Below the pieces are notes generated by a model. That model was not told the origin of the DNA and made no database searches. It was given only the letters and a program-made list of their open reading frames with translations. Position numbers and translations under genes: made by a program. Positions 27,480-61,165 of a DNA stretch of 64,000 nt are shown here, piece by piece. The number at the start of each line of letters is the position of its first letter. Within the stretch, counting starts at the first letter, position 1. The DNA is from Olivibacter sitiensis DSM 17696 (GTDB lineage: Bacteria; Bacteroidota; Bacteroidia; Sphingobacteriales; Sphingobacteriaceae), in the NCBI RefSeq assembly GCF_000427965.1, contig NZ_ATZA01000002.1, forward strand, positions 1-64,000, in the 5' to 3' direction.

Positions 27480-28268
27480 TCAGACCGATATGGGAAGTCC
27501 CTTGATATCGGCAATAAAAGTCGGTATGCGGTCCAGATAATCTTCCTTGTCCAGCAATTTGACAAATTCACTGCCGATAATGGCGGCGTCTGCATATTCA
27601 AGTGCCTGATCAAATTGCTCTTTGCCACGAATGCCAAATCCCATGACCAATGGATTCTTAAGCGCCAACGATTTCACTCTATTGAAATAGTTCGCCAAAG
27701 AAGTATCTACGTCAAGTTTATTGCCCGTGGTGGAAGCTGATGACACCATATAAATGAAGCCTGTAGTCAACTCATCAATTTGCCTGACTCTTTCCTCACT
27801 GGTTTGTGGAGTAATCAAAAAGATATTGGACAATCCGTATCTTGCGAAGATATCCTTGTAAAGTGACTCATATTCATATACGGGCAAATCCGGAACAATA
27901 ATACCATCCACCCCCACTTCCGCACAGGATTGGCAAAAATGTTCTACACCATATTGAAGCAAAGGATTCACATAGCCCATGAGCAATACCGGAATATCTG
28001 TATATTGACGTAAGTCCTTCAGCTGCTCGAATAACAGCTTCACTGTCATGCCATTTTTTAATGCCTGCTCAGAACTATGCTGTATAGTGGGACCATCCGC
28101 CACTGGATCCGAATATGGAAAGCCTATCTCCAAAAAATCAGCTCCAGAAGCCGCCAGTTGCCTGGCGATTTCCAATGTATCGTTCAGCTTGGGATAGCCC
28201 GCCGTATAATATATAGATAATAGTTTTGAGCCTTCTTTTTCCTTAAACAATTTCTTTATCCTACTCAT
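27480..28268 (-). CDS. trpA: tryptophan synthase alpha chain
   Basis: 262 residues, close to the family's usual length. It cleaves indole-glycerol phosphate to indole and glyceraldehyde 3-phosphate in the alpha2-beta2 complex. The catalytic residues are visible: Glu47 in FLEIGFPYSDP and Asp58 in VADGPTIQ. GVDGIIVPDLP and the phosphate-binding GFGIRG further support it. It is the last gene of the operon, 11 bp after trpB. Confidence 0.98.
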   Translation of the reverse strand: MSRIKKLFKEKEGSKLLSIYYTAGYPKLNDTLEIARQLAASGADFLEIGFPYSDPVADGPTIQHSSEQALKNGMTVKLLFEQLKDLRQYTDIPVLLMGYVNPLLQYGVEHFCQSCAEVGVDGIIVPDLPVYEYESLYKDIFARYGLSNIFLITPQTSEERVRQIDELTTGFIYMVSSASTTGNKLDVDTSLANYFNRVKSLALKNPLVMGFGIRGKEQFDQALEYADAAIIGSEFVKLLDKEDYLDRIPTFIADIKGLPISV

Positions 28269-28279
28269 CTTTCAATGAT

Positions 28280-29467
28280 TTAAAAACCGAAATACTTCAT
28301 ATAGTTGTCCAGATCCTTATCCCCCCTACCAGATAGGCAAACCACCACCTGTTCATTGCCCCGAAAAGTCATTTTTTCGAGTTGCGCCAATGCGTGAGCA
28401 CTCTCTATAGCTGGTATAATACCCTCCAATCGCGTGAGTAACAAGCCCGCCTGCATGGCTTCCTCGTCGGTAATGCTCACGTACTCCGCCCTACCTATTT
28501 TATGCAAAAACGCATGTTGAGGACCTATGCCTGGATAGTCCAAGCCAGCAGAAATGGAATACGGTTCTACCACTTGACCATCGTCCGTTTGCATCAATAT
28601 AGTCCTGCTTCCGTGCAACACTCCCTCTTTACCTAGCACGGACGTGGCAGCAGATTCTCCAGAATCCACTCCTTTTCCTGCTGCTTCCGCCGCTATGAGC
28701 CTAACCCCTTCTTCGTTGAGATAGTGATAAAACATCCCCATCGCATTGCTTCCACCCCCTACGCACGCAATCACAATATCCGGATTTTCACTGCCTGTTT
28801 GCTCCAAAAGCTGCTTTTTGGTTTCGGCCGAAATAATGGACTGAAATCGAGCTACCATATCTGGATATGGATGTGGGCCCACTACAGAACCAATGATATA
28901 ATGGGTATCTACCGGATTGCTTATCCAGTCGCGCATGGCCTCATTGGTGGCGTCCTTCAGGGTCTTGCTTCCCGACACAGCCGGTCGCACTTCCGCCCCC
29001 ATCATTTTCATACGTGCCACATTGGGTGCCTGCCGGGCCATATCTATCTCGCCCATATAGACTACGCATTCGAGCCCCATTAACGCACATACAGTAGCCG
29101 TGGCTACGCCGTGCTGCCCAGCACCTGTTTCAGCTATGATGCGGTTTTTCCCCAGCCGCTTGGCCAGCAGAATTTGCCCTATGGTATTGTTAATCTTGTG
29201 CGCACCTGTATGGTTCAAGTCTTCTCGTTTCAAGAATATCTTTGCTCCATAGCGCTCCGATAAGCGCTTGGCAAGATATAACGGAGATGGCCTGCCCACA
29301 TAATCCTTCATCAGTTGGTCAAACTCCGCCTTGAAAGAGGGCTCTTCCATAATCTCCAGATAGCGTTTGCGCAATTCTTCTATATTGGGATACATCATCT
29401 CGGGGATATACGCTCCTCCGAAATCACCATAATAGCCCTTTTCATTCACCTGGTAATCCATCCTCAT
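28280..29467 (-). CDS. trpB: tryptophan synthase beta chain
   Basis: 395 residues. This PLP enzyme joins indole and serine to make tryptophan. The PLP lysine is Lys91 in [10 protein letters not shown]; the phosphate loop GGGSNAMG and the late SGRGDKD are also present. It is the TrpB1 type that pairs with TrpA. Met1 and Met3 are both possible starts. It lies 5 bp after trpF. Confidence 0.98.
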
Positions 29468-29472
29468 TCACT

Positions 29473-30129
29473 TTATTCGTTAATCTCTCTAGCTGTAATA
29501 TTTTGCTCTAAAAGTGCCCCAGCCTTTCGCAATAGTTCAACATCTTTCAGGCCTGGCCTTATCTCAAAACGCGAATTCACATCTATGGCATAAAGCCTCT
29601 TATCATTTACCTTGGATAGTAGGTCTTTTAAGTTGTCTAATGCTATGCCACCACTCAAGAAATAAGGAATTCCAAAGGGATATTCCTTCAACAAGCTCCA
29701 ATCGAATACCTGGCCAGAGCCACCATATGCAATGTGCTTTGTGTCAAAAAGGAAATAATCTACATCGCCTATGTACTGCTCCAGAATAGACCAATCAAAA
29801 CCCTCAGAAATACCAAAGGCTTTAATGACCTTGACGCCATGTTGCCTCAATGCCTTGCACAGGTCTGGCCTTTCGTTGCCATGCAACTGCACGACATTTA
29901 GACCATAATTTTCTATCGCTTGATAGATAATCTCCTCTTCGGCATTGACAAAAACGCCCACCTTATTGGCCGTTGTAATGGACGATGCAAAATCCGCCGA
30001 CAAATCGCCTACGTATCTCGGCGAACGGCCATAAAAGATAAATCCAATATAGTCTGGCCGTAGCCCTAGTACATGTCCGATATTCTCGGCATCCTTCAGC
30101 CCACAAATCTTCCACTTCAACGTGTTCAT
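29473..30129 (-). CDS. trpF: phosphoribosylanthranilate isomerase
   Basis: 218 residues from ATG at 30129; its ATGA overlaps the trpD stop, so I prefer it to the TTG at 30135. This TIM-barrel enzyme isomerises phosphoribosylanthranilate. The general-base Cys is in KWKICGLKD at the N-terminus, and the acid Asp is in YAIDVNSRFE. VVQLHGNE and FLSGGIALDN are typical. The indole-glycerol-phosphate synthase gene (trpC), which usually precedes it, is missing. Confidence 0.97.
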   Translation of the reverse strand: MNTLKWKICGLKDAENIGHVLGLRPDYIGFIFYGRSPRYVGDLSADFASSITTANKVGVFVNAEEEIIYQAIENYGLNVVQLHGNERPDLCKALRQHGVKVIKAFGISEGFDWSILEQYIGDVDYFLFDTKHIAYGGSGQVFDWSLLKEYPFGIPYFLSGGIALDNLKDLLSKVNDKRLYAIDVNSRFEIRPGLKDVELLRKAGALLEQNITAREINE

Positions 30130-31133
30130 GAGCAACTAACCTTTTGCTTGCTCAGCAAAGCGTTGAAACTACTAAATGCCTTGCCGGAGAGGAGTGATTC
30201 CTCAGCTTCATAATAACAATCGGCAAGGCTTTTTTCTTGATGAATCGTCTGGATTGCTATCGCCGCATTGATTAGCACCACATTTTGCTGTGCACTGCTT
30301 CCATCTCCTTTGATGATCTTGAGAAAAATAGCGGCGGCTTCTTCAACCGTGTTTCCACCTTCAATTTCTGTGGCAGAGACGGCATCAAATCCCAATCTAT
30401 CCAAGGTAAGGTAATCCTCGCCCTTATTATTTATTATCTTCACGTCGCCCGTTAAGGAAATCTCATCATAACCATCCATCGAATAGAGAATGGTATATCG
30501 CTTATCTGTCTTCTGGTAAAGGTAAGCGTACAAACGGGCTAGTTCCAAACTGAAAACGCCTACTGACTGATACGTTGGCAGCGCGGGATTGACCAAAGGA
30601 CCAAGCATATTGAAAAAAGTTTTCACACCGAGCTCCTTGCGCACAGGAGCTACCGTTTTCATCGCTGGATGGAACAAGGGCGCATGCAGGAAGCAAATAT
30701 TCGCTTCATCCAGCCCACGACGAATTTCACCTTCATCATTGGTAAATTGATACCCTAGATATTCCATCACATTGGATGACCCGCAGCCCGAGGAAACGCC
30801 ATAATTGCCATGCTTGGCCACATGATAACCGGCACCGGCCACCACAAAAGATGCCAAGGTGGAAATATTGAACGTATTTTTGCCATCTCCACCCGTACCG
30901 CATAGATCGATGAGTTCGTAGCCCTGTACATCCACTGGCCTACGCAAATCCAGCATGGCGTCGCGAAAGCCGGCCAGCTCCTCCACCCTGATACTACGCA
31001 TGCAATAGGCCGTCATAAACGCTGCCATTTGCGACACGTTGTATTTGCCCGAAGCGATATTGGTCAGAATGGCATAGGCTTCATCCCGACTAAAAGTTTT
31101 GTGCTCAAACAGATGCGACAGTATTTTCTTCAT
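30126..31133 (-). CDS. trpD: anthranilate phosphoribosyltransferase
   Basis: 335 residues, the usual length. It transfers phosphoribose to anthranilate. PRPP-binding DLCGTGGDGKNTFNIST and the HGNYGVSSGCGSSNVME region are clear, as is FFNMLGPLVNPA. It is the first structural gene of the operon, about 110 bp downstream of the Trp-codon leader peptide and directly behind the attenuator hairpin. It overlaps trpF by 4 bp. No trpE or trpG precedes it. Confidence 0.97.
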   Translation of the reverse strand: MKKILSHLFEHKTFSRDEAYAILTNIASGKYNVSQMAAFMTAYCMRSIRVEELAGFRDAMLDLRRPVDVQGYELIDLCGTGGDGKNTFNISTLASFVVAGAGYHVAKHGNYGVSSGCGSSNVMEYLGYQFTNDEGEIRRGLDEANICFLHAPLFHPAMKTVAPVRKELGVKTFFNMLGPLVNPALPTYQSVGVFSLELARLYAYLYQKTDKRYTILYSMDGYDEISLTGDVKIINNKGEDYLTLDRLGFDAVSATEIEGGNTVEEAAAIFLKIIKGDGSSAQQNVVLINAAIAIQTIHQEKSLADCYYEAEESLLSGKAFSSFNALLSKQKVSCS

Positions 31134-31165: not shown

Positions 31166-31210
31166 ATATAACAAAAAAGGCTTGCGCATATGGCAAGCCT
31201 TTTGTTATAT
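31166..31210 (-). terminator. trp attenuator (terminator with competing antiterminator)
   Basis: In the minus-strand transcript AAGGCTTGC (31201-31193) pairs with GCAAGCCTT (31185-31177), extended outward by A/T pairs and followed by a T-run: an intrinsic terminator before trpD. The 8-mer TTGCCATA (31196-31189), part of its 5' arm and loop, can instead pair perfectly with TATGGCAA (31242-31235), forming an antiterminator. TATGGCAA itself overlaps a pause hairpin, CATAAAG-GTTGA-CTTTATG (31257-31239), that begins right after the leader's Trp codons. The three structures exclude one another as in classical attenuation. Confidence 0.92.
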
Positions 31211-31245
31211 TACATACTACACACAACAACGGTATTGCCATAAAG

Positions 31246-31293
31246 TCAACCTTTATGCCACCACCAAAAGCTATATGCAGATATATCGTTCAT
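31246..31293 (-). CDS. trpL: trp operon leader peptide, 15 aa with WWW
   Basis: A short frame, ATG to TGA, encoding MNDISAYSFWWWHKG. Three consecutive TGG codons (31266-31258) make it a tryptophan sensor: when charged tRNA-Trp is scarce, a ribosome stalls there and masks the pause hairpin's first arm, freeing the antiterminator. When Trp is plentiful, the ribosome reaches the stop, which lies in the pause-hairpin loop, and the terminator forms. No clear Shine-Dalgarno sequence precedes it, as is usual in this phylum. The peptide itself probably has no further job. Confidence 0.93.
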   Translation of the reverse strand: MNDISAYSFWWWHKG

Positions 31294-31303
31294 AGTTACG
31301 AGG

Positions 31304-31334
31304 CAAATATGTAAAAAGAAGCTGAAACTTGCAA
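31304..31334 (-). promoter_or_regulatory. possible trp operon promoter
   Basis: Upstream of the leader peptide the minus strand shows TTG (31334-31332), 18 bp, then TACATATTTG (31313-31304), which resembles the -33/-7 arrangement of Bacteroidota but with two extra bases in the -7 box. It sits 10 bp before the leader ATG. This is a plausible promoter and no more than that. Confidence 0.35.
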
Positions 31335-31398: not shown

Positions 31399-32610
31399 AT
31401 GGATCTTCACTCTGGCCTACCCTACTGGATAATAAAAAATCCACTTTACAATTATTTCAATCCGCTGAATATATCTATTAAGACAGATGTGCTCATTATA
31501 GGTTCGGGCATTACCGGAGCTCTCGTCGCCCACGAATTGTGCAGTGCTGGAATAGCGTGCACTGTAGTAGACAAACGCAGTATTGCCACGGGCAGCAGTG
31601 CTGCAAGCACATCGCAGCTACAGTATGAAATAGATGTGCCACTATGCCAAATGGCCGATCAGCTCGGCACAGACAGGGCTGTGCCCGCCTACTTGGCAAG
31701 CCTTCAATCCATATCAGATTTAGAAACACTATTTAAAACCACAGGGGTAAACGCCTATTTTGAGCGCGTACCGAGCTTATACTTAGCAAGCAATAAACAG
31801 GGACTTAAACTTATCGAAAGAGAATATGAAATAAGAACGGAATACAAATTGCCAGTAAGTTATTTTGACAAGAAGCATTTAAAGAATCAATTCAATATCT
31901 CAGCACCTGGAGCTTTATATAACAATAGGTCTGCTCAGATGGATTGCTATGCGGCAGCAATCGGATTATTAAAACACCATATGGAAGCTAACAATCTGCA
32001 ACTGTTCTCTCATACGGAAATTGTTTCTTGGGAAGAGCGCCCCAGAAGCTATCTCTTCAAGGCATCGAACGGGAAAACAATCAGCTGCAAGTATGTCGTC
32101 ATTGCAGCGGGTTTTGAGGCAGGAAAATTCCTGCCAAAAGATGTCATGGACCTGCAGTCAACTTATGCCCTCGTTTCCCAACCTATTCAACCTAATCAAT
32201 TTTGGAAAGAACGCTGCCTCATCTGGGAAACCAGGGAACCCTATTTCTATATCAGAAGCACACAGGACAACCGCATCATTATTGGTGGAGGCGACGAGGA
32301 CTTCAAAGACCCTGTACGGAGAGACAAGCTCTTGAGAAGAAAAATAGCCTCCCTCGAAAAGCAGTTTCACAAGCTGTTCCCAGAAATACCCTTTGTCACA
32401 GACATGGCCTGGTGCGGCACCTTCAGTTCCACCAAAGATGGCCTCCCCTACATAGGCACCTGGCCAGGTAAGGAGCGTATGTTCTTTGCCCTAGGGTACG
32501 GAGGCAATGGCATCACCTTTAGCATGATTGCTGCCCAGATGATAAGGAATAGACTGACAGGTCAAAAAGATGCTAGGGAAGATATCTTCGGATTTGAACG
32601 TGCCAAATAG
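31399..32610 (+). CDS. FAD-dependent oxidoreductase (DAO/glycine-oxidase-like)
   Basis: 403 residues. The FAD-binding Rossmann motif is near residue 35 (DVLIIGSGITGALVAHEL), followed by VVDKRSIATGSSAASTSQLQYE, and a second FAD strand YVVIAAGFEAG. The C-terminus has GTFSSTKDGLPYIGTWPG and ALGYGGNGITFSMIAAQ, typical of DadA/glycine-oxidase-like enzymes. The amine substrate is unknown. It is divergent from the trp operon, with no evident functional link. Confidence 0.88.
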   Translation: MDLHSGLPYWIIKNPLYNYFNPLNISIKTDVLIIGSGITGALVAHELCSAGIACTVVDKRSIATGSSAASTSQLQYEIDVPLCQMADQLGTDRAVPAYLASLQSISDLETLFKTTGVNAYFERVPSLYLASNKQGLKLIEREYEIRTEYKLPVSYFDKKHLKNQFNISAPGALYNNRSAQMDCYAAAIGLLKHHMEANNLQLFSHTEIVSWEERPRSYLFKASNGKTISCKYVVIAAGFEAGKFLPKDVMDLQSTYALVSQPIQPNQFWKERCLIWETREPYFYIRSTQDNRIIIGGGDEDFKDPVRRDKLLRRKIASLEKQFHKLFPEIPFVTDMAWCGTFSSTKDGLPYIGTWPGKERMFFALGYGGNGITFSMIAAQMIRNRLTGQKDAREDIFGFERAK

Positions 32611-59869: not shown

Positions 59870-61165
59870 ATGTATGAGGTAGTTTTTGACCATAAAGATG
59901 CCTTGGAACTGTATACAAAGAAAGCCCTTCAATGGGCTTCTTTGTTTGATCAATTTTGCTATCTCAATGGCAACCAGTTAGATGATCGATATGGCAAATA
60001 CCATGCTATACTTGCTGTGGGTGCTAAATCTCAATTTGTATGGGGAAAGCAGGGAAATAGCGACACCTTTTCTCAGCTCCAAGCCTTTCTAGACACCAAG
60101 AAAGGCGATTGGAAGTTTGGTTTCCTGACATACGATCTTAAGAACAAAATAGAGAAACTCCACAGCCCGAAGACACCTTCCATCGTTTTCCCGCTCTCCT
60201 ATTTTTTCGTTCCCCAACACTTGCTGCTAATAGACAAGGACGACCTACGGGTAGAGATCCAATCGGATGAACCCAATGACATACTCCATCAAATCCGTGA
60301 GCAGGAAATCCAGCATGCGGCATTCGTGTTCAAAGGTGAAATACACCCCAAAACTAGCAGGGAGAAATATGTCGAAATCTTTGAAAACCTGAAACGGCAC
60401 ATCTTAAGAGGAGACATCTACGAGGTCAATCTCTGCCAAGAATTTGTGGGCGAACAGACGTCGATAGATCCACTCCAAGCCTATTGGACACTAAACAGTA
60501 TATCCCCCGCCCCCTTCTCATCCATGTTCAAGCACAACCAAAAATATGTGTTATGCACATCGCCAGAGCGCTTTTTGGCAAGAAGAGGGAAACAACTCAT
60601 CAGCCAACCCATCAAAGGCACGGCAAAAAGGGGCAATGATGAGCAAGAAGACGATCATATCAAAAACACATTGTTGCACGACCCGAAGGAAAGAAGCGAG
60701 AATATCATGATCGTAGACTTGGTGCGCCATGATCTCACAAAAAGTGCCGAAGCAGGAACGGTGCGGGTGCTCGAACTTGCCGGTCTGCACAGTTTCAAAA
60801 CAGTACATCAGCTCATTTCTACCGTAGCTTGTGAAGTGAGGAATAACATAAATGAAACAAACATCATTGCCAATACCTTTCCCCCAGGTTCCATGACCGG
60901 TGCTCCAAAGATAAGCGCCATGCAGCTGATAGATCGATACGAGGAAAGCGCACGCGGCATCTATTCGGGCTCCATCGGATACTTCTCCCCCGATGGGGAT
61001 TTCGACTTCAACGTGGTAATAAGAAGTTTGATATATGATGCCAACCAAGGGCTCATCTCCTTTCACGTAGGTGGGGCCATCACCGCACTGGCCGATGCCG
61101 AAAAAGAATATGAAGAATGTTTAACGAAGGCAGCTGGGATTTTGCAATTATTGGAATTGCATTAA
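59870..61165 (+). CDS. pabB: aminodeoxychorismate synthase component I
   Basis: 431 residues of the chorismate-binding family. The block SQPIKGTAKRG (Lys near 248) has the PIKGT lysine characteristic of PabB; anthranilate synthase (TrpE) has PIAGT. GSMTGAPK near residue 342 is the usual active-site block. With an amidotransferase it makes 4-amino-4-deoxychorismate for folate. No pabA is adjacent. It starts 12 bp after purA, so cotranscription is likely. Confidence 0.93.
   Translation: MYEVVFDHKDALELYTKKALQWASLFDQFCYLNGNQLDDRYGKYHAILAVGAKSQFVWGKQGNSDTFSQLQAFLDTKKGDWKFGFLTYDLKNKIEKLHSPKTPSIVFPLSYFFVPQHLLLIDKDDLRVEIQSDEPNDILHQIREQEIQHAAFVFKGEIHPKTSREKYVEIFENLKRHILRGDIYEVNLCQEFVGEQTSIDPLQAYWTLNSISPAPFSSMFKHNQKYVLCTSPERFLARRGKQLISQPIKGTAKRGNDEQEDDHIKNTLLHDPKERSENIMIVDLVRHDLTKSAEAGTVRVLELAGLHSFKTVHQLISTVACEVRNNINETNIIANTFPPGSMTGAPKISAMQLIDRYEESARGIYSGSIGYFSPDGDFDFNVVIRSLIYDANQGLISFHVGGAITALADAEKEYEECLTKAAGILQLLELH

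Follow-up and report, generated by a model that had tools for sequence, protein, structure and literature searches.

A probable trp attenuator before trpDFBA of Olivibacter sitiensis and a second, different candidate before trpEGC

The trpDFBA operon of Olivibacter sitiensis DSM 17696 is very probably controlled by a ribosome-mediated transcription attenuator, a reading for which the sequence, its conservation among relatives, covariation in the 1:2 and 3:4 helices, the adjacent promoter boxes and computed folding all argue. Judged from its sequence the leader appears to be a genuine trp attenuator, well conserved and of a kind already known; the novelty lies in its pairing with a second, different attenuator, and in the very short predicted 5' ends. 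As an attenuator the leader is textbook, and Bacteroidota were already known to carry such leaders. Its value is as a test system, in which a phylum without Shine-Dalgarno pairing apparently couples ribosome and polymerase on the leader; a leader start codon that lies a few bases from the predicted RNA 5' end adds to this interest, and two independent versions in one genome should respond to one Trp-tRNA signal.

The window analysed here is a stretch of 64,000 nucleotides (contig NZ_ATZA01000002.1, positions 1 to 64,000), and the features of the operon and its leader are collected in table 1. The trpD, trpB and trpA products score above their NCBIfam cut-offs, and TrpF is named from matches below cut-off. 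A divergent gene that starts at 31399 resembles FAD-dependent oxidoreductases in profile matches below cut-offs. Elsewhere in the window, at 60113-61159 (+), there is a second gene for a chorismate-binding enzyme; since its product has 34% identity to the organism's own TrpE over 112-466, it appears to be a PabB-like or isochorismate synthase-like paralogue rather than trpE.

Table 1. Positions in the window of the trpDFBA promoter elements, leader and genes.
Feature	Position	Strand	Basis
-33 promoter element (TTG)	31332..31334	-	T, T and G in 96, 99 and 72% of 120 distinct trpD promoters
-7 promoter element CATATTTG	31304..31311	-	Bacteroidota consensus TAnnTTTG, one mismatch
10-nt spacer; predicted 5' UTR of ~6 nt; no Shine-Dalgarno sequence by eye	31294..31303	-	
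Leader peptide ORF trpL, MNDISAYSFWWWHKG + TGA	31246..31293	-	Read from sequence; conserved
Three tandem Trp codons TGG TGG TGG	31258..31266	-	WWW in 108 of 120 distinct trpD leaders
1:2 (protector/pause) hairpin CATAAAG/CTTTATG	31239..31257	-	Covariation
Segment 2, TATGGCAA, antiterminator 5' half	31235..31242	-	Sequence, pairing, folding states
Segment 3, TTGCCATA, antiterminator 3' half (terminator 5' arm and loop)	31189..31196	-	Sequence, pairing, folding states
3:4 intrinsic terminator with T-run	31173..31203	-	Covariation
trpD	30126..31133	-	TIGR01245, 310.9 bits, cut-off 199.05; ATG at 31133
trpF	29473..30135	-	Best NCBIfam matches phosphoribosylanthranilate isomerase, 153.4 bits, below model cut-off of 216
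trpB	28280..29467	-	TIGR00263, 593.5 bits, cut-off 392.45
trpA	27480..28268	-	TIGR00262, 234.2 bits, cut-off 102.35

The codons of trpL are ATG AAC GAT ATA TCT GCA TAT AGC TTT TGG TGG TGG CAT AAA GGT TGA. A first-pass annotation of this DNA had described, before trpD, such an ORF with three TGG codons, a hairpin, an 8-bp antiterminator and a terminator, and our reading agrees with it base for base; TATGGCAA (31242-31235) and TTGCCATA (31196-31189) are perfectly complementary. The terminator and its T-run are present as claimed, but they extend beyond the 31201-31177 given for them, since the arms AAAAGGCTTGC (31203-31193) and GCAAGCCTTTT (31185-31175) span 31203-31175 and the T-run reaches 31173. 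The pause hairpin that was said to begin right after the Trp codons is likewise there, but the folded 1:2 stem also includes the Trp codons. Sequence and computed folding states bear out the further statement that the three helices share segments and exclude each other. The 124-nt leader RNA has a folding energy of -48.1 kcal/mol (z -5.96), which is equalled by 0 of 200 shuffles. TGGTGGTGG occurs a single time in the window, both strands counted, and when the window was scanned for ORFs of 7-32 codons with at least three identical W, H, F, C, Y or M residues in a row, trpL alone among the eight ORFs found was then followed by a terminator-like hairpin. Taken alone, the spacer-arm pairing of the window copy is within chance (11 of 100 spacer shuffles pair as well), and so it is conservation that carries the case.

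We searched 201 genomes of the family for trpD and obtained a match in 185. Sixty-nine trpD loci from this search (30 + 39) were inspected together with 80 named loci, of which 58 were taken by title as Sphingobacteriaceae or close to them (Sphingobacterium, Parapedobacter, Pedobacter, Mucilaginibacter, Pelobium, Pararcticibacter and some vaguely titled MAGs) and the other 22 belong to other or unstated groups, e.g., Algoriphagus; some genomes contribute to both the named and the unnamed set, so that the counts are not independent. A leader was scored where AnnTTTG is followed 2-25 nt later by the start codon of an ORF that has no more than 36 codons and contains W-W or W-x-W. By this rule 125 of the 126 family loci, among them that of the window, have a leader before trpD, and 120 of these leaders are distinct. 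The sole locus without a leader by this rule is L200. One further locus, L013 from a genome of the same genus, was left out of the count with just 183 nt between trpD and the contig end, and shows no leader or terminator in those 183 nt; its genome does carry a trpE leader (L082). Conservation of the Trp codons in relatives, whose absence the first-pass annotation had named as a ground for abandoning its reading, is strong: the three Trp positions are W in 100, 97 and 91% of 104 distinct peptides, and the other residues vary. In 95 of the 120 distinct leaders the Trp codons begin at codon 10. A GGCA core was found in 88 of the 120, and the last Trp codon lies 17-19 nt from it in 81 of these 88; the distance from the stop codon to the core varies widely. 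Among the 22 named loci from other groups, 19 have no W-W-type ORF within 800 nt before trpD, and the three that do (L202, L214 and L215) have one that is unlike the trpD leader. As to gene order, 20 of the 24 loci from L196 on have trpC after trpD, and none of the 56 loci L140-L195 do; two of the 24 are Sphingobacteriaceae by title.

Covariation in the trpD leader was tested with 500 shuffles on 40 aligned sequences out of the 120. In the 1:2 helix 36 cells are changed on both sides against a shuffled mean of 13.9, and in the 3:4 helix 29 against 10.2, and neither value is reached in any of the 500 shuffles; one terminator pair is GC in 19, CG in 18 and AU in 3 sequences. When drawn in the register of the window copy, the 2:3 helix is paired in 74.3% of cells (slid versions reach at most 54.7%), and this fraction is no better than that of shuffles, since 251 of 500 reach it in the 40-leader alignment and 217 of 300 in a set of 115 distinct sequences. 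The compensatory stem changes predicted for relatives are thus found in 1:2 and 3:4 but give no signal in 2:3, because the 2:3 core GGCAA:UUGCC is nearly invariant. Its outer three pairs are local to the window copy and a few relatives, so that the 8-bp antiterminator is exact here but in relatives only the 5-bp core is general.

In the organism's own genome trpE, trpG and trpC lie on another contig, apart from trpDFBA; the TrpC and TrpG products pass a profile cut-off, and the best TrpE model is below cut-off. The attenuator upstream of this trpE spans L007 1605-1744 (contig C1) and consists of an ORF with WWW (L007 1605-1655) and a terminator with the arms CCCGACG and CGTCGGG; the pairing of its segment 2, GCGCCGGG, with CCCGACGC contains a single mismatch. 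This second attenuator and the promoter boxes next to the ATG were both absent from the first-pass annotation. A search of 61 genomes for trpE gave a match in 59 (in some a paralogue only), and in the best 30 of these 59 a Trp leader and a terminator of the CCCGACG type precede trpE in every case. The start codon of these leaders is ATG in 28 and, by eye, GTG in two; five of the 30 loci are without the AnnTTTG box of the strict rule. After trpE come trpG in all 30 loci and trpC in 29, the last locus being cut by the contig end. In the terminator (3:4) of the trpE type nine cells are changed on both sides against 1.7 in shuffles, a value reached by 0 of 500. Covariation in its 2:3 helix is weaker (11 cells against 5.7, with 1 of 500 shuffles reaching it, and with 132 of 500 for pairs changed on both sides and 490 of 500 for further pair types). 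Compensatory changes are therefore seen across 1:2 and 3:4 in the trpD type and across 3:4 and, in part, 2:3 in the trpE type.

A covariance model of the trpE leader was run on a class-wide draw of 247 genomes. It gives at least 47 bits in eight family genomes, with further family genomes possible among the non-matches, and five of the eight (G013, G014, G035, G036 and G051) lie outside the model and have the match directly before trpE. At E 0.01 it matches 95 of the 247 genomes, most of them below 40 bits and with rough E-values, and matches below 40 bits were taken as ordinary terminators. Of the weaker matches, L249 and, in the organism's own genome, L250-L253 are by eye plain terminators near gene ends, where tblastn found no trp gene. 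At L246, from another Bacteroidota family, a WWW leader (MRIILNNNWWWLNS) and a terminator lie directly before trpE, and this is a real trpE-type leader. Both loci were inspected in 26 genomes, and by hand count 25 of them carry both attenuators; the exception, G015, is the genome whose trpD locus is L013 at the contig end. In the open-access literature we found no paper on a trpEGC leader or on two attenuators in Sphingobacteriaceae.

Alignment of the 120 distinct trpD promoters on the -7 box reveals a shared TTG element about 20 nt upstream of that box. At the two positions that AnnTTTG leaves free, T and A occur in 96 and 93% of the 120 relatives, the A and the TTTG being required by the rule. 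From TTTG to the start codon there are a median of 10 nt in trpD leaders (range 5-19; 10 in the organism's own genome) and 6 nt in the 25 boxed trpE leaders (5-8 in 23, and 15 and 23 in two; 7 in the own genome). Boxes that end this close to the start codon predict nearly leaderless starts. In 464 kb of the own genome, with first ATGs taken as start codons, 72 of 241 operon-leading ORFs have TAnnTTTG within 80 nt, and the spacing from box to ATG in these 72 genes is bimodal, with seven at exactly 4 nt, eight at 5-8 nt and a broad group from 20 nt (median 24). The 4-nt cluster suggests a class of leaderless mRNAs; if 4 nt does mark leaderless genes, the 5' UTR would be about 6 nt long in the trpD leader and about 3 nt in the trpE leader. 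Published values include a median of 32 nt with ~3.7% under 10 nt in B. thetaiotaomicron (PMC7366714) and a median of 24 nt with 5.5% leaderless in F. psychrophilum (PMC9723704).

As in leader-peptide attenuators, a short ORF rich in Trp codons lies directly upstream of a trp operon, and an antiterminator and a terminator with a common segment exclude each other, as seen in the sequence, in the folding states and in cognate versus swapped pairing. For the trpD leader we infer the transcription start, the initiation mode, the stalling, the read-through and the response to tryptophan, as follows. Transcription would begin a few bases upstream of the leader ATG, and ribosome loading would do without Shine-Dalgarno pairing. 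With ample Trp-tRNA the ribosome at the stop codon would cover segment 2 and prevent 2:3, and with 2:3 blocked 3:4 would form and transcription would end before trpD. Under a shortage of Trp-tRNA the ribosome would stall on UGG UGG UGG, covering segment 1 and leaving segment 2 free; 2:3 would then form before segment 4 is made, and the polymerase would read through. The trpEGC attenuator elsewhere in the genome would follow the same logic with unrelated sequence.

We computed folding states for these ribosome positions on partial RNA that extends to the end of segment 3, with the ribosome represented by masking 12 nt that begin with the A-site codon. For the window RNA P(2:3) is 0.00 without a ribosome, 0.94, 0.97 and 0.97 with the first, second and third Trp codon in the A-site, and 0.00 with the ribosome at the stop codon. 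Masks of 11, 13, 15 and 17 nt keep this pattern (P(2:3) at the stop at most 0.11), and a 9-nt mask gives 0.61 at the stop, which makes the stop-codon state footprint-dependent. Among the relatives, with the stalled value taken as the best over the last Trp codons, spacer-arm pairing exceeds 0.5 in the stalled state in 120 of 120 trpD and 30 of 30 trpE leaders, at the stop codon in 25 of 120 and 0 of 30, and without a ribosome in 20 of 120 and 19 of 30. In view of this last figure the trpE-type leaders may read through in the no-translation state. The stalled state beats both others by 0.1 in 110 of 120 trpD leaders but in just 15 of 30 trpE leaders. Shuffled spacers also often pair in the stalled state (median 0.51 for trpD and 0.46 for trpE), and 0 of 20 shuffles reach the real value in just 37 of 120 trpD and 12 of 30 trpE leaders (3 of 20 do so for the window copy); more is therefore to be learned from how the ribosome positions differ. 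In 112 of 120 trpD and 27 of 30 trpE leaders the spacer pairs more strongly with its own terminator arm than with one drawn at random from the other type. Its pairing with the arm also beats that of spacers shuffled by dinucleotide (no more than 5 of 100 as good) in 81 of 120 trpD and 22 of 30 trpE leaders, and the window copy is not one of these.

The first-pass annotation had thought the leader unreported, which does not hold, since it is of a kind already known: the Rfam family RF01692 (Bacteroid-trp) matches the window copy over its full length (1-131). Like that family it lies upstream of trp genes in Bacteroidota and has a Trp leader ORF. Since the match scores 41.6 bits, below the cut-off of 49, and the cut-off is passed by two of the 20 trpD loci scanned, the window's own included (L011, 53.1 bits, and L012, 49.6 bits, both of the same genus), the leader is a divergent relative of RF01692 and no formal member. 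With 18 of the 20 trpD loci and all 20 trpE loci scanned giving no Rfam match at cut-off, these scans suggest that Rfam misses many trp leaders of Sphingobacteriaceae. The AUG, the UGG run, the 1:2 stem and the AAAAGGCUUG terminator arm of RF01692 align with the window copy. RF01692 differs in that its best 30 matches in the phylum precede trpE (27) or trpB (3), versus trpD here, and that 20 of those best 30 have 16-18 nt between TTTG and ATG, versus 10 nt in the window copy. In a phylum-wide draw of 395 genomes RF01692 has matches in 47 at E 0.01, of which 37 exceed the cut-off. At L110, L115 and L136, from two other families (f11 and f12), a Bacteroid-trp leader lies before trpB, with trpE after it. 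Two weak matches in the own genome (C75 and C23) were taken as chance, with no Trp leader by eye. RF01692 is the family described by Weinberg et al. 2010 (PMC2864571), Bacteroid-trp RNA has been named before the trp operon of F. psychrophilum (PMC6414381), and a transcriptome paper reports strong indications of attenuation by leader peptides upstream of amino acid operons (PMC9723704).

The enteric Trp_leader family, RF00513, scores 25.7 bits against the window copy, below its cut-off of 41. The enteric comparison system is E. coli trpL. Both have a short ORF with tandem Trp codons, mutually exclusive 1:2, 2:3 and 3:4 helices and a U-run, whereas the window copy has three Trp codons, no visible Shine-Dalgarno sequence, a Bacteroidota promoter and trpD as the first gene of the operon. 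The two would thus appear to work alike, a likeness of operation rather than shown homology. On balance we favour the view that in Sphingobacteriaceae the split trpEGC and trpDFBA operons are run by two leader-peptide attenuators of the same logic with unrelated stems (GGCUUGCC/GGGUUGCC before trpD and CCCGACG before trpE), the trpE type matching no Rfam family at cut-off, and that with both ORFs a few bases from the RNA 5' end a nearly leaderless initiation free of Shine-Dalgarno pairing drives attenuation.

Several other explanations of the trpD leader were weighed. That a short TGG-bearing ORF happens to precede a terminator would fit the chance-level antiterminator pairing of the window copy alone, but the leader in 125 of 126 loci, together with the covariation, makes such a coincidence scarcely credible, and we rejected a chance ORF on the conservation of the leader in family trpD loci. 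Were TrpR, TRAP or a T-box the regulator and the hairpin a plain terminator, the conserved Trp codons would be left unexplained; the own genome has no TRAP match and no T-box (RF00230, 0 covariance-model matches) at E 0.001, and its single weak TrpR-family match (21.7 bits, cut-off 27) contains an internal stop. Such regulation is extremely unlikely, and we rejected a T-box, TRAP and a clear TrpR on these matches. It is very unlikely, too, that the ORF is translated with the nascent peptide sensing free tryptophan, or with a signal other than charged tRNA-Trp: peptide sensors do exist, TnaC being an example, but here strong conservation is confined to the W run, and the spacing of 17-19 nt between this run and the antiterminator core, kept by 81 of 88 leaders, is the one that stalling at the Trp codons predicts.

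A reading that is compatible with attenuation, and unlikely as the main role, is that the terminated leader, ~125 nt long and with a nearly leaderless ORF, works chiefly in trans, as a small RNA or small mRNA that possibly links both trp operons. The model for this is rnTrpL of S. meliloti, which begins at the trpL ATG and acts in trans on the trpDC mRNA of a second operon (PMC7298713). The leader ORF is at the RNA 5' end there and is predicted to be so in O. sitiensis, where it lies near the promoter boxes, and in both the trp genes are spread over more than one operon; the weak conservation of the non-Trp residues argues against a function of the peptide. The two systems differ in that S. 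meliloti is described as attenuating trpE(G) and using rnTrpL in trans on trpDC (PMC7298713), whereas here there is an attenuator on each operon.

The own genome has a further leader of this general form. At L222 (-), with its start at 4632 on contig C1, a Thr/Ile leader (MINITTTIIISIIGHKSQRGE) and a terminator stand 208 nt upstream of an aspartokinase-like gene of 816 aa that looks like thrA and is followed by thrB-like and thrC-like ORFs; from its sequence this is likely a third attenuator of the genome.
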